A program made the position numbers and the translations under genes. A DNA stretch of 17,991 bases from Candidatus Poribacteria bacterium. Lineage in GTDB: Bacteria; Poribacteria; WGA-4E; WGA-3G. Under the pieces are notes generated by a model. That model saw nothing but the letters and a program-made list of their open reading frames with translations. It did not search any database and was not told the origin of the DNA. This document shows, one piece after another, positions 1-4,481 of the stretch (position 1 is its first letter; each line of letters begins with the position of its first letter). Location of the stretch: contig JAPPMR010000089.1 of assembly GCA_028818995.1 (NCBI GenBank), forward strand, positions 1-17,991, in the 5' to 3' direction.

Positions 1-1740
1 CTCGTATTGTCCTAATTTGCGTTTCGTCATCCCGCGATTGTGGTAGCGTACATCGTTCGGCCCCAGTCGTATTGCCTCATCATAATCGGCGATCGCAGCC
101 TCGTATTGTTCAAGCTTGTCTTTTGCATACCCCCGGTTACCGTAAGCTGTGGTATAATTTGGGTTAAGTCGTATTGCCTCATCACAATCAGCGATCGCAG
201 CCTCGTATTGTTCAAGCTTATTTTTTAGATATCCTCGGTTGTTGTAGGCACAGACGTAATTTGGATTAAGCCGTATTGCCTCATCATAATCAGCAATCGC
301 AGCCTCGTATTGTTCAAGTTTATCTTTTGCCCACCCCCTGTTGGCGTAGGCATAGTAGGCAAAAGCGTGGTTTGAACTTAGGCGTATTGCTGCATCAAAA
401 TCAGCCATTGCCGACTCGTATTGACCCAACCAATTCTTCGCAAGCCCACGCCTATTGTAAGCTGCAGCAGAATCTGGATTGATACGAATTTCCTCATTAT
501 AACGAGTAATCGCCGTCTCATAGTCTATTACTGCCTCCTCACGTTGTCCGAGTTTCTCCTTTGCTCTACCTCTCTGAGCATAGGCATTTGGATAATCAGG
601 TTTTAGCTGGATAGCTTCATCAAAGTCAGAAATCGCAGATTCATGTTGCCCAAGTTGGTTCTTTACATAGCCCCGATTTGCATAGCCAAAGTGGTAGTTA
701 GGATCCAATCGTATTACTTCCTCATAGTCGGCAATAGCAGCCTCATGTTGTCCTAATCGATTCTTTGCAATTCCACGACTGTTATAGGCTCCGACTAAAG
801 TTGGATCTAATCGAAGAGCCTCATTACAGTCTGCAATCGCCTCATCAAGTTGGTCAAGTTGACTCTTCACATATCCCCGGTTGGAATAGGCAGCCGCTTC
901 ATCCGGTTTTAGTCGAATGGCCTCATCATAGTCCGCAATCGCAGCTTCGTATTGCCCCAATTTGTGTTTTGCAATACCTCGATTGGTCCAGGCCTCGGCA
1001 AAGTCAGGTTTTAATCGTATTGCCTCATCATAGTCAAGGAGGGCGGCTTCATGGTGGTAAATTTCGTTTTTTGCGCCGCCGCGGTTGTAGTAGGCATCTG
1101 TATACTCGGGATTTAGGCGTATCGCCTCGTCGTAATCGGCAATCGCAGCCTCATATTGTTTCAGTTCACCTTTGGCAATACCGCGGTTGTAGTATGCATC
1201 TGCGTGGTCCGGCTTCAGGCGTATCGCTTCGTCATAATCAGCGATGGCGGGTTCGTATTGTTCCAATTCACCCTTGACGACACCACGGTTGTAGTAGACG
1301 TCTGTATACTCTGGGTTCAGTCGTATTGCCTCGCCATAATCGGCAATCGCAGGTTCGTGTTGGTTCAGTTCACCCCTCGCCCAACCCCGATTGTAGTATG
1401 CATTGGCATATTCTGGATTCAAGCGTATTGCCTCATCATAATCGGATATGGCCTCTTCAAGTTGACCGAGTGATGCCTTTGTAGCCCCTCGATCATTGTA
1501 AAAAACAGCATCGGGTTTGAGAGATAACGACTTGTCGTAAGCAGAAAGTGCCTCTTCTTTCCGACCACTTTCTGAAAGGAGGGATCCAACGGAAAACCAA
1601 GCATGGGCAGCAAGTTCGGTGTCTATTGCTTCGGCAAGAGTAGCCACGGCACGCCACTGCTCAATTGTATCTTCAACTGTTCCAGTTGTCTCAGGATTAT
1701 TGATGTCCTCTATAATTTTAATGAGCGTTTCTGCGTTCAC
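1..1740 (-). CDS. Tetratricopeptide-repeat protein, C-terminus cut off by window edge
   Basis: The frame is open from a GTG at 1740 to the left edge, giving 580 residues with no stop. The start is supported by AAGGA five bases upstream and an in-frame TGA shortly before it. After about 45 non-repeat residues come some 16 TPR units of 34 residues with the consensus AYYNRGxAKxxLxQYEAAIADYDEAIRLNP, the classic TPR pattern of small and large residues (N-R-G, A-I-x-D-Y, A-I-x-L-x-P). TPR arrays form a right-handed superhelix that binds peptides or proteins; the partner is unknown. I see no signal peptide or membrane segment in this part, so a cytoplasmic scaffold is likeliest. The period is exactly 102 bp except for a 9-bp insertion near 345-365, a 21-bp insertion near 505-530 and one unit short by a codon at the left edge. 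Codons are in phase throughout, so this is not a pseudogene. The C-terminal end lies outside the window. Confidence 0.93.
   Translation of the reverse strand, partial: MNAETLIKIIEDINNPETTGTVEDTIEQWRAVATLAEAIDTELAAHAWFSVGSLLSESGRKEEALSAYDKSLSLKPDAVFYNDRGATKASLGQLEEAISDYDEAIRLNPEYANAYYNRGWARGELNQHEPAIADYGEAIRLNPEYTDVYYNRGVVKGELEQYEPAIADYDEAIRLKPDHADAYYNRGIAKGELKQYEAAIADYDEAIRLNPEYTDAYYNRGGAKNEIYHHEAALLDYDEAIRLKPDFAEAWTNRGIAKHKLGQYEAAIADYDEAIRLKPDEAAAYSNRGYVKSQLDQLDEAIADCNEALRLDPTLVGAYNSRGIAKNRLGQHEAAIADYEEVIRLDPNYHFGYANRGYVKNQLGQHESAISDFDEAIQLKPDYPNAYAQRGRAKEKLGQREEAVIDYETAITRYNEEIRINPDSAAAYNRRGLAKNWLGQYESAMADFDAAIRLSSNHAFAYYAYANRGWAKDKLEQYEAAIADYDEAIRLNPNYVCAYNNRGYLKNKLEQYEAAIADCDEAIRLNPNYTTAYGNRGYAKDKLEQYEAAIADYDEAIRLGPNDVRYHNRGMTKRKLGQYE
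20..1480 (-). repeat. 102-bp tandem coding repeats (TPR units)
   Basis: The phrase resembling gtattgcctcatca recurs at 69, 171, 273, 384, 486, 609, 711, 813, 915, 1017, 1119, 1221, 1323 and 1425. Spacing is 102 bp apart from 111 (273 to 384) and 123 (486 to 609), both multiples of three. The units are similar in DNA as well as protein, which suggests tandem duplication or gene conversion. They encode the TPR units described for the gene covering them. Confidence 0.9.
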
Positions 1741-1905: not shown

Positions 1906-2268
1906 TCATGCGCCCCATATAATTGCTTCAACTATGTCAGAAACTTGTTCTACTATTTCATCTGGCATCTCAATTTCAAAAACAGCATTTCTTGCATGCC
2001 AATCCAAACACTTGATTTGATCTGTCTGAATTGCACCATGCACTGAAAGACCTTCTGGAATAACAACATCAAAACGACTCGTTCTGACAGTTCGGGTAAT
2101 GGGACAAACAACAGCAACCTTTCGCCAATAGTTAAAATCCGAGGAGGATAGAACAAGAGCGGGACGACGTTTCATAGTTTCATTCCCGGTTTGAGGATCA
2201 AAATCTATCCACACAACGTCACCTCGCACCGGCACGTATTCCGGGTCGTACTGGGTTGCTGCTACCAT
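1906..2268 (-). CDS. mazF: MazF/PemK-family mRNA interferase toxin
   Basis: A 120-residue protein close to the usual MazF length (E. coli about 111). Family toxins are sequence-specific endoribonucleases that cut mRNA and arrest growth until bound by antitoxin. Diagnostic segments: RGDVVWIDFDPQTGNE at 15-30, KRRPALVLS at 33-41 (R35 aligns with the catalytic arginine of the family), the VCPIT strand at 54-58 with T58 as the likely catalytic threonine, and Q82-T-D-Q-I-K-C-L-D-W matching the family's DQVKSIAW segment. All core motifs are intact, so the toxin is probably active. Its ATG lies inside the 3' end of the upstream gene (7 bp overlap) with no strong Shine-Dalgarno site, so translation is probably coupled to the antitoxin, as usual for such pairs. 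It ends TGA. The cleavage site cannot be read from sequence. Confidence 0.93.
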   Translation of the reverse strand: MVAATQYDPEYVPVRGDVVWIDFDPQTGNETMKRRPALVLSSSDFNYWRKVAVVCPITRTVRTSRFDVVIPEGLSVHGAIQTDQIKCLDWHARNAVFEIEMPDEIVEQVSDIVEAIIWGA

Positions 2269-2954
2269 ACTTCATTACCGACCGGTGGTCCGGTGTCTAC
2301 CTCTCCGGATGCAGTATCATCAGTCTCTTGTGCAAGGAGGTCAGACAGTTTCACACGGGGGCGTTTTGCGGGACGACCAACCTTTTCGGCACGATGCAGT
2401 TTAAAAGGTCTTTTATCTACAGAATCATCGGATCCGTTCATATTGACATCTTGTGCAAGGAGGTCAGACAGTTTCACGCGCGGAAGTTTTGCGGGACGAC
2501 CAACCTTTTCGGGCCGATGCGGCTTGGGCATGCTTTGACCCAAGGAATGATTTTGGATTTTCATATCGAATTCCTCCTCATTACTCTCTTCAATGTCGGC
2601 TTTGCACTTCTCAATGAGGGTGTCAATGGAGTCCATCAAGGGAGTTAAAAGATGATTTTTATTTTCGCCAACGACAGCAGTTAAAGCCTCCAAAGATCCA
2701 ACAAGCTGTTGATAATCGTTGGGATTCAACGAGGCCAAAAGCTGACTCTCATTCCGTCCGACTACATCGGCCAATATATCCACAGCCACAGCAAGCGATT
2801 GAGGCACACCGACTGTTTTGGGAATAAGTGAACTGGGAGCCGGTTTTTGGTACTCAGCGGGACTCAATCCGTCAGCATCTTCAAATGCAATATCTAATTC
2901 AACACGATCTGCTATTGGTGGGGACTGTGGTGTCCGTTGCCTATCGGTTGACAT
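2262..2954 (-). CDS. Probable MazF antitoxin with non-AbrB N-terminus and duplicated C-terminal motif
   Basis: A 230-residue protein, about three times the length of MazE (82). Residues 201-230 (VKLSDLLAQ ... EVDTGPPVGNEVW) align with the toxin-binding tail of E. coli MazE, which as I recall it ends WGEPKDKEVW after a TLAEL helix. The swapped-hairpin AbrB/SpoVT DNA-binding domain expected before that tail is not recognisable. Instead residues 52-116 are leucine-rich with two similar segments (VVGRNESQLLASL at 64-76, VVGENKNHLLTPL at 94-106), then an acidic stretch (119-130), then two 41-residue-spaced copies of HR(P/A)EKVGRPAK(L/R)PRVKLSDLLAQ (146-168, 187-209). The GRP core flanked by basic residues resembles an AT-hook and could bind the A+T-rich promoter. 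Only the second copy carries the full acidic tail. GAGAGGGG lies six bases before the ATG. Antitoxin role is inferred from tail, position and overlap with mazF. Confidence 0.8.
   Translation of the reverse strand: MSTDRQRTPQSPPIADRVELDIAFEDADGLSPAEYQKPAPSSLIPKTVGVPQSLAVAVDILADVVGRNESQLLASLNPNDYQQLVGSLEALTAVVGENKNHLLTPLMDSIDTLIEKCKADIEESNEEEFDMKIQNHSLGQSMPKPHRPEKVGRPAKLPRVKLSDLLAQDVNMNGSDDSVDKRPFKLHRAEKVGRPAKRPRVKLSDLLAQETDDTASGEVDTGPPVGNEVW
2328..2400 (-). repeat. Direct repeat copy B in antitoxin gene
   Basis: About 73 bp closely matching 2451-2523 at an offset of 123 bp (41 codons). It encodes residues around 187-210, the second GRPAK...KLSDLLAQ unit. DNA-level similarity shows a fairly recent in-frame tandem duplication. 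Confidence 0.85.
2451..2523 (-). repeat. Direct repeat copy A in antitoxin gene
   Basis: Partner of 2328-2400. It encodes residues around 146-169. It starts with the same bases (ttgtgcaaggaggtcagaca) and diverges mostly at synonymous or conservative positions. Confidence 0.85.
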
Positions 2955-3083: not shown

Positions 3084-3112
3084 ACTATACCATGCCAAAT
3101 TATCGGTGTCAA
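3084..3112 (-). promoter_or_regulatory. Sigma-70 promoter P2 (proximal) of the mazF operon
   Basis: On the minus strand TTGACA (3107-3112), a 17-bp spacer and TATAGT (3084-3089). Transcription would start near 3077, leaving a leader of about 120 nt before the antitoxin ATG. It shares 28 of 35 bases with the distal promoter 44 bp upstream. Confidence 0.75.
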
Positions 3113-3127
3113 GGAAAACGCATAAAA

Positions 3128-3156
3128 ATTATATCATGCCAAAATACCGATGTCAA
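3128..3156 (-). promoter_or_regulatory. Sigma-70 promoter P1 (distal) of the mazF operon
   Basis: On the minus strand a full-consensus TTGACA (3151-3156), 17-bp spacer and TATAAT (3128-3133). The shared spacer segment TTTGGCATG next to the -10 box of both promoters may be an operator. The 44-bp offset is about four helical turns, so both copies lie on nearly the same face of the DNA. Confidence 0.8.
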
Positions 3157-3212: not shown

Positions 3213-4481
3213 TTAACGACTCCGAGTAGAATGCTGGCTAAATTGAGTCAAATAATTCCCAATCTTATCCTGAATCCCCCGCGCAGTTGCCGCCGATCCA
3301 ACATAGTGGCTTACGAGGATACCAAAAGCCAACACCTCACGATCTGCTGTTGTAGTGTAGCCAGCAAGTGCGGAAACACCACTTAACGTCCCTGTTTTCG
3401 CACGCAATGTCTTTTCAGCGTACATTCCTTGCATCCGATTCCTCAAAGTGCCATCAACACCAGCGATTGGAAGCGATGTCATAAATTCTGGTGCCAACTC
3501 AAAATTGCTATACATATAGACAAGTAATTTGGTCAACAATTCAACGTTGAGGAGATTGTAGCGAGAAAGTCCAGAACCGTCAACAAATCGGTGTGCAGGC
3601 GGTTCACCCAGAATCTCATCTAAAAATTCAGTAACAGTCTCTCTCCCCTTTTTCCACGTTCCCGGTTCACCCTTTACTTCAGCACCTATAGTTTTGAAAA
3701 GGAACTCTGCAATCCAATTGTTACTCGGTTTGTTCATTAGTTTGATGATGTCGGCAAGTGGTGGGGATAGATGTGCGGCAACTCTGTTTGCTTCTGATGG
3801 CACTGTTCCTGAGACAACCTCACCCATTACATTAATACCTTTTTGCGTCAGTGTGGTTTTCAGAAGATAGCCGCAAGCAATTGCCCTGCTACCTGTTTTA
3901 GCATCGGGTTCAATGTTGCGGATACTTAAGGCACTAATCCGAAGTGGTTTATCATCCCACATCCAGCCTGGACCTTCCCTAACAGTATCAAGGTAAGTTT
4001 CGTCTACAACAATGTTCCCTTGTACTGTTTTTACACCTGTTTGTGCAAATGCCTCACACAATTCCACAATATCATCTGATTGAAGTACCGGGTCAGCTTT
4101 ACCTTTAAGATATATGTTTCCTACAACTTGTGCGTCCGTTGTCGTATCGGTGTAAAGCGTTGTTGCAAACTGATAGCCCGATCCAAGTTTGGCCAAGGCG
4201 GTTGCTGCCGTAAACAGTTTCGTTGTTGAAGCGGGATGATGCAATTTGTGGTCATTTTTGGCATAAATGACCTCTCCCGTTTCAACTGCAACGACTTTTA
4301 TGCCTATGCTTGCCGTTGTAAACAGCGCGTCTTGCAATACTACATCAATATCCGCATGTAGTTTTTCAAGTGGATCGATAGAGGGTGTTGGCGGTTGTGG
4401 CTGGATGGGTTTTGTCCCGAATATTCCACAACTTGATAGCAACAATATACAACAAATTAAAAAAATGCTATAAGTTTTCAT
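3213..4481 (-). CDS. dacB: D-alanyl-D-alanine carboxypeptidase/endopeptidase (PBP4 type, peptidase S13), lipoprotein
   Basis: A 422-residue penicillin-binding protein of the PBP4 class, which trims or cleaves peptidoglycan peptides outside the cytoplasmic membrane. The three active-site motifs are present: S85-T-T-K88 (nucleophile Ser85), S253-N-N255 and K362-T-G364, along with the family segment DGSGLSRYN (301-309). The N-terminus is a lipoprotein signal peptide with lipobox L15-S-S-C18, so the mature protein should be tethered by lipidated Cys18, followed by a Pro/Gln-rich linker (24-36). E. coli DacB is longer (477) and not a lipoprotein. Residues 100-245 correspond to the insert between SxxK and SxN typical of PBP4 but shorter. 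No Shine-Dalgarno site precedes the ATG. The gene symbol follows family assignment only. Confidence 0.92.
   Translation of the reverse strand: MKTYSIFLICCILLLSSCGIFGTKPIQPQPPTPSIDPLEKLHADIDVVLQDALFTTASIGIKVVAVETGEVIYAKNDHKLHHPASTTKLFTAATALAKLGSGYQFATTLYTDTTTDAQVVGNIYLKGKADPVLQSDDIVELCEAFAQTGVKTVQGNIVVDETYLDTVREGPGWMWDDKPLRISALSIRNIEPDAKTGSRAIACGYLLKTTLTQKGINVMGEVVSGTVPSEANRVAAHLSPPLADIIKLMNKPSNNWIAEFLFKTIGAEVKGEPGTWKKGRETVTEFLDEILGEPPAHRFVDGSGLSRYNLLNVELLTKLLVYMYSNFELAPEFMTSLPIAGVDGTLRNRMQGMYAEKTLRAKTGTLSGVSALAGYTTTADREVLAFGILVSHYVGSAATARGIQDKIGNYLTQFSQHSTRSR

Follow-up and report, generated by a model that had tools for sequence, protein, structure and literature searches.

Bacterial type II antitoxins have been classified by their DNA-binding domains, which in one review are of the helix-turn-helix (HTH), ribbon-helix-helix, AbrB and Phd types (PMC4803016). 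The same review describes the folding of the MazE tail onto MazF. In E. coli HigA, two helices wrap HigB (PMC7984235), and mix-and-match between toxin and antitoxin families is established (PMC7354431). How an antitoxin changes its toxin is, nevertheless, rarely visible. In this study, we analyzed a stretch of 17,991 nucleotides from Candidatus Poribacteria (contig JAPPMR010000089.1; hereafter, the window), in which a gene for the RNA-cutting toxin MazF is preceded by the gene of a predicted 230-residue antitoxin. We found that this antitoxin joins a HigA-type N-terminal domain to two MazE-type tail units. Sequence and locus comparisons make it likely that it is a hybrid type II antitoxin, and that a HigB-HigA pair was replaced in place by this hybrid and MazF, the HigA domain being kept and the tails blocking MazF.

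The closest described systems share some features with this locus and lack others. MazE proteins with an AbrB/SpoVT domain, such as E. coli MazE (PF04014), have what appears to be the same C-terminal MazF-binding tail, and their antitoxin gene also stands first beside MazF. Unlike them, the window antitoxin has no AbrB domain that we could find, a doubled tail unit, and a HigA domain at its N-terminus. This domain is common to E. coli HigA (PDB 5ifg, 5ycl) and the HTH-bearing plasmid HigAs, but the window antitoxin has no HTH and no adjoining HigB, and carries MazE tails; the gene order is antitoxin-toxin, whereas HigA systems are ordered toxin-antitoxin. The nearest relatives of the domain are short HTH-less HigA-type proteins (about 75-150 residues) encoded behind HigB, some of them in the same chromosomal slot; unlike the window antitoxin, they are HigB-paired and tail-less. 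On the toxin side, MazF/PemK (PF02452) is single in the window, whereas relatives L002, L003, L007 and L010 encode tandem MazF-MazF. Among the literature matches listed, whose titles and abstracts were searched and which leave most subscription papers and preprints outside, none describes a hybrid of HigA and MazE, a tandem tail of the MazE type or these loci. The original prediction, made from the sequence alone, had proposed a new antitoxin architecture, and no earlier description contradicts it among those matches: we regard a HigA N-terminal domain followed by tandem MazE tails as an architecture new to type II toxin-antitoxin systems.

Domain composition of the window antitoxin

The antitoxin, its parts and the toxin are arranged as follows.

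2262..2954, minus strand: hybrid antitoxin open reading frame (ORF), 230 residues, ATG start; leader, HigA N-terminal domain, two MazE-type tail units and C-terminal EVDTGPPVGNEVW
2817..2954, minus strand: antitoxin leader, residues 1-46; block mean predicted local distance difference test score (pLDDT) of 41-48 for residues 1-50, which is low
2595..2816, minus strand: HigA N-terminal domain, residues 47-120; predicted helices 54-67, 69-75, 78-95 and 104-124
2451..2525, minus strand: tail unit 1, residues 144-168, KPHRPEKVGRPAKLPRVKLSDLLAQ
2328..2402, minus strand: tail unit 2, residues 185-209, KLHRAEKVGRPAKRPRVKLSDLLAQ
2265..2303, minus strand: MazE-type C-terminus, residues 218-230, EVDTGPPVGNEVW
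1906..2268, minus strand: MazF toxin, 120 residues; matches PF02452 and PDB MazF chains

The toxin is an ordinary member of the MazF/PemK family by its Pfam match (PF02452, 1.3e-20) and by its closest solved chain among PDB sequences, 7bye_B (1.5e-21). Its ORF starts within the end of the antitoxin ORF, with an overlap of 7 bases. As a whole, the window antitoxin gave no match in the PDB sequence search. We collected 87 homologues at E ≤ 1, the top one 91% identical. No match was found for it in the plasmid collection, nor for its relative from L006 among phages.

A MazE-type C-terminal tail had already been predicted, and this is well supported by sequence comparison. The last 48 residues gave one distinct PDB match at E ≤ 10 among 177,635 sequences, namely 7d2n_E, an AbrB/MazE/SpoVT-type antitoxin that is matched in its tail (residues 40-80; E 0.13). 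Moreover, a Poribacterial-tail profile scored 22.7 bits against residues 49-82 of E. coli MazE, a value reached by 0 of 1000 shuffles (best 5.6), and the tail of L024, an AbrB-less Poribacterial relative, matches the NCBIfam MazE model at 2e-5, under the model cut-off. What the prediction had overlooked is the duplication of the helix unit. The pattern HRxEKVGRPAKxPRVKLSDLLAQ is present twice, within residues 144-168 and 185-209, flanking letters included. Counted by pattern in 132 sequences (the 87 homologues and 45 genome ORFs, partly overlapping), the unit occurs at least twice in 84, once in 21 and not at all in 27. The last two units within one protein have a mean similarity of 0.79, against 0.60 for units at different positions between proteins. 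Likewise, the units of one protein agree at 188 of 229 fourfold degenerate sites (17 proteins, unit identity >0.65), compared with 364 of 719 for units of equal position in different loci (pairs at ≥0.7 unit identity). We read this likeness within proteins, together with the identity at fourfold sites, as concerted evolution of the tail units by recent duplication or conversion.

On the other hand, the N-terminal region had been described as of unknown fold, yet by sequence it is recognizable. Residues 47-120 share homology with the HigA antitoxin N-terminal domain, the link to classical HigA resting on intermediate sequences. The related proposal of a replaced regulatory or stability module is wrong or incomplete: since the HigA N-terminal domain is toxin-binding in E. 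coli, a role as a substitute regulatory module can at most be supposed. No HTH family was found for the window protein in Pfam, while HTH_3 is present in L114 and L115. The short HTH-less HigA-type family (P0125-P0207) comprises 2044 proteins, mostly of about 75 residues among the 120 listed and devoid of a precomputed Pfam domain; records named for Gemmatimonadota, Planctomycetota and Roseiflexus are among them.

Partner toxins and the slot beside DacB

We compared the window with 111 loci chosen by antitoxin similarity, two of which (L001 and L055) represent one contig. Among the 70 ORFs with the domain and no tail of class a, b or d, HigB lies directly upstream in 43 and MazF adjoins none. 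In the 11 ORFs with domain and tail (10 distinct), MazF follows directly downstream in nine, broken in L009, and HigB adjoins none; those without MazF downstream are L001 and L055. Similarly, MazF lies downstream of 25 of the 34 tail-only ORFs and HigB beside none. The 27 domain ORFs with no recognized neighbor include the class c proteins, with tails resembling DEPEYTLDML..NPDY. A Pfam scan of three ORFs downstream of class c found TPR matches in all of them, mostly under cut-off, and in one a weak PemK match (PF02452, 0.0011), also under cut-off.

The pairing is mirrored in the domain itself, as seen when the 43 HigB-upstream domains are set against 24 MazF-type domains (10 from genome loci, the other 14 from hand-picked homologues). 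Tyr 117 is present in 43/43 of the former and at most 1/24 of the latter, Ala 104 in 36/43 and 2/24, and Pro 123 in 40/43 and 4/24. By contrast with these losses, the MazF-type domains keep Leu 84 and Leu 91 (24/24 each), Gly 96 (22/24) and His 101 (20/24). Having lost residues that are fixed in its HigB-paired counterparts, the HigA domain of the hybrids probably no longer binds HigB. Tyr 117 is found in 8 of 11 class c domains. Position 112, considered as a further signature, was dropped because it is variable in the 43 HigB-upstream domains.

The genes around the toxin-antitoxin pair run in the order CimA-like (plus strand), DacB-like, antitoxin, MazF and TPR gene (all minus strand). The two that flank the pair are listed here.

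3213..4481, minus strand: DacB-like gene, upstream boundary of the slot, named from our own reading of the sequence
1..1740, minus strand: TPR-repeat gene downstream, running beyond the window edge; its N-terminal part recurs at relatives

We take the DacB-like product to be a D-Ala-D-Ala carboxypeptidase; the CimA-like gene was likewise named by reading the sequence. The same DacB flank borders several kinds of occupant: HigB-HigA in L030, L056, L062 and L070; HigB with a HigA::TPR fusion in L032-L035, L037-L039 and L043; the HigA domain with MazE tails followed by MazF in the window and L002-L006; and the HigA domain with a class c tail in L008, L012 and L015. In L001 (= L055), the flank borders an ORF with domain and tail, with no MazF by our own profile. 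Thus, the slot shows apparent before and after states of a toxin exchange.

A tree of the domain (105 sequences, 69 columns, rooted with eight HigA-type proteins from an outside set) places the hybrids among the HigB-paired HigAs. All MazF and class c hybrids except L106 form one clade (96 in the Shimodaira-Hasegawa-like approximate likelihood ratio test), including L052, a class c protein that had been grouped as a fusion by length. The neighbors of this clade are stand-alone HigAs, among them the slot members L030, L056, L062 and L070 (fork support 80). Within the clade, the two kinds of tail, class c and MazF, intermingle: P0032 falls in the group of the window protein (98) and P0058 in one of the class c groups (88). 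This suggests that tails have been exchanged between the two kinds of hybrid. L106 (2512-2844), the exception to the clade, is a short HigA-type protein that has one class c tail, possibly a second, independent fusion.

Some further arrangements were observed. HTH-less proteins of up to 837 residues with a HigA N-terminal domain joined to TPR arrays occur in L032-L046 (e.g., L032, 2089-3432, minus strand), mostly directly behind HigB, and by eye the leader of the window antitoxin (residues 1-46) looks common to them. L018 carries a HigA domain ORF (1480-1749) in surroundings like those of L019, but HigB does not adjoin it. In L008 (1255-2837), a class c hybrid is followed in one slot by a tail-only, double-tail protein with no MazF of its own; this pair of antitoxins is possibly a snapshot of an exchange.

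AbrB loss and tail number

The absence of an AbrB/SpoVT domain from the window antitoxin, as originally predicted, was confirmed in our searches. No Pfam or NCBIfam family matched the protein at E ≤ 10, in a search where HMMER filtering removes most matches with E above about 0.1, and an AbrB profile from the N-terminus of E. coli MazE gave E 5.2 for the window protein versus 2.5e-11 for E. coli MazE. A diverged AbrB domain in residues 1-145 was therefore rejected, neither collection nor our own profile having found it.

We then looked at the ORF upstream of MazF in the phylum. PF02452 was sought in 81 Poribacteria genomes and found in 70, and 75 MazF places were picked by hand, about every second row among the matches listed (L116-L190); three of them repeat loci of the comparison above. 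The upstream ORF has AbrB plus tail in nine places, an AbrB-less tail in 29, the HigA domain plus tail in three and other contents in 33, and is missing in one. Hence, 32 of the 41 MazE-tailed antitoxins have no AbrB domain, and, judging from these sequences, AbrB loss is common in the phylum and not special to the window protein. The 29 of the 41 with neither AbrB nor HigA domain consist of a short N-terminus and one or two tails. In addition, long ORFs (393-474 residues) lie directly upstream of MazF in L160, L161, L169 and L177, and by eye those of L161 and L177 begin like HTH regulators.

At least two tails are present in 0 of the 9 AbrB-type and 20 of the 32 AbrB-less antitoxins (p 0.0013, an optimistic value since the genomes are related); the tail pattern overlooked a single unit in some AbrB proteins, which are only 80-91 residues long. 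This difference suggests that doubling of the tail in one chain substitutes for dimerization through AbrB. Unit identity is ≤0.64 in 20 of the 84 multi-unit proteins and ≥0.68 in 64. Four of those 20 are genome loci: L002, L003 and L010, where the toxin is a 234-residue chain with two MazF domains, and L009, where it is broken. In the single-MazF hybrids (window, L004, L005 and L006), unit identity is 0.84-0.92. The tandem MazF-MazF ORFs lie at 2175-2879 in L002, 797-1501 in L003, 1992-2696 in L010 and 2241-2996 in L007. As the lineages are related, diverged tails alongside tandem MazF are a pattern and not a test. Altogether, these observations suggest a testable rule in two parts: antitoxins that have lost the dimerizing AbrB domain would often carry a second toxin-binding tail in the same chain, and the two antitoxin tails would diverge when the toxin is itself a tandem MazF.

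Proposed toxin replacement, its alternatives and the promoters

The locus comparison and the domain tree together point to an in-place replacement of HigB by MazF. The resident HigA domain would have stayed in the slot and received tandem MazE tails, while MazF, made from an overlapping second gene, would have taken the place of HigB. By analogy with MazE, we infer that the tandem tails neutralize MazF: disordered tails would fold onto the MazF dimer and block the toxin, and two tails per chain would occupy both sites of the dimer, the bivalency that AbrB-type MazE gains by dimerizing. The HigA domain may remain as a folded scaffold or, more tentatively, as a docking domain, perhaps for the TPR protein. 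If so, the new antitoxin has retained, in its N-terminal part, a domain that served the old toxin, and the toxin swap becomes traceable.

Several observations weigh against this explanation. It is built on sequence and locus comparison, from which we infer the contact between tails and MazF. A direct profile comparison with E. coli HigA yields a weak 2.0 bits, a score reached by 6 of 1000 shuffles and surpassed by a decoy E. coli ORF (2.5 bits). A HigA profile found no HigA among PDB sequences at E ≤ 10. Neither of two structure models, of the whole window protein (mean pLDDT 59.6) and of the 75-residue HigA P0128 (80.2), had a HigA among the Foldseek/VIA-align matches listed, and Foldseek gave nothing for them at E ≤ 0.001, small helical bundles being hard for fold search. 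Moreover, 49 of the 99 inner branches of the domain tree are open and the outgroup is not one clade; with only 69 columns, the tree is indicative only. At DacB, the profiles used detect neither the domain nor a tail, MazF or HigB in 36 further genomes, 6 of which are represented by stretches shorter than 4 kb. The slot is thus usually empty and is an insertion site, which may have been filled repeatedly and independently. Finally, tandem tails are not needed everywhere, as 12 of the 32 AbrB-less antitoxins and the hybrids P0082 and P0084 are single-tailed.

The best-surviving alternative, which we nevertheless hold to be doubtful, is a three-component system in which the HigA domain docks the adjoining TPR protein, and this protein stabilizes or titrates the antitoxin. 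A TPR gene lies behind 7 of the 11 domain-plus-tail and 4 of the 7 class c ORFs but 0 of the 34 tail-only ORFs (one of which has too little flank; L052, grouped elsewhere by length, would be a fifth class c case), and HigB systems in this slot have the domain joined to TPR repeats. However, only 5 of the 45 stand-alone HigA ORFs have the gene behind them, and in L219 it stands immediately after DacB without a toxin-antitoxin gene, so that it may be a mere neighbor; in L202 and L205 it lies about 3 kb further on. In addition, only one fusion matches the N-terminal profile of the TPR partner, and the two are not established as one family. A bolder extension is unlikely in our judgment: that the domain is a toxin-independent socket of the slot, that toxins (HigB, MazF, tandem MazF and TPR-linked MazF-like) swap with matching tails as the domain and the TPR partner remain in place, and that in the resulting three-component module the TPR partner decides, through the domain, the time of toxin release.

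Because no DNA-binding domain was recognized, autoregulation may be absent or may proceed through the basic GRP stretches. We regard it as rather improbable that these repeats replace AbrB as the autoregulatory element by binding DNA in the manner of AT-hooks, which we take them to resemble. The window protein has two such HRxEKVGRPAKxPR stretches and most class a relatives share them, but Pfam gave no AT-hook match at E ≤ 10 (short motifs are easily overlooked), and P0025, P0026, P0028 and P0035 have no GRP in either copy while the remainder is kept.

A bispecific antitoxin, with the HigA domain neutralizing a HigB made elsewhere in the genome and the tails neutralizing MazF, would account for the partly kept domain core (Leu 84, Leu 91, Gly 96 and His 101) and fits the HigB-HigA loci in other genomes of the same family. 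The loss of the residues fixed in HigB-paired domains, above all Tyr 117, and the adjoining of HigB to 0 of 45 tail-bearing ORFs make it quite unlikely. That the locus is a decaying MazEF with a functionless N-terminal relic recalls the 118-residue antitoxin of L001 (= L055), with no toxin by our own MazF profile but a partial PF02452 match (5-90 of 109) close downstream, and the broken MazF of L009, but is very improbable given the intact antitoxin and toxin ORFs of the window and the conservation of the domain in tens of relatives.

Replacement of HigB by MazF remains our preferred explanation. The promoters of the window are listed here.

3084..3156, minus strand: two tandem sigma-70-like promoters upstream of the antitoxin, by consensus matches

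Both are near-perfect, 44 bp apart, with spacers alike: TTGACA-17-TATAAT (3156-3128) and TTGACA-17-TATAGT (3112-3084), with TTTGGCATG common to the two. The loci, 558,272 bases in all with L001 and L055 counted twice, contain 16 perfect TTGACA-(16-18)-TATAAT sites, and in several of these the spacer is likewise T-rich and ends near GCATGG. We therefore rejected TTTGGCATG as an operator; the spacer of the tandem promoters is probably a promoter style of these genomes.
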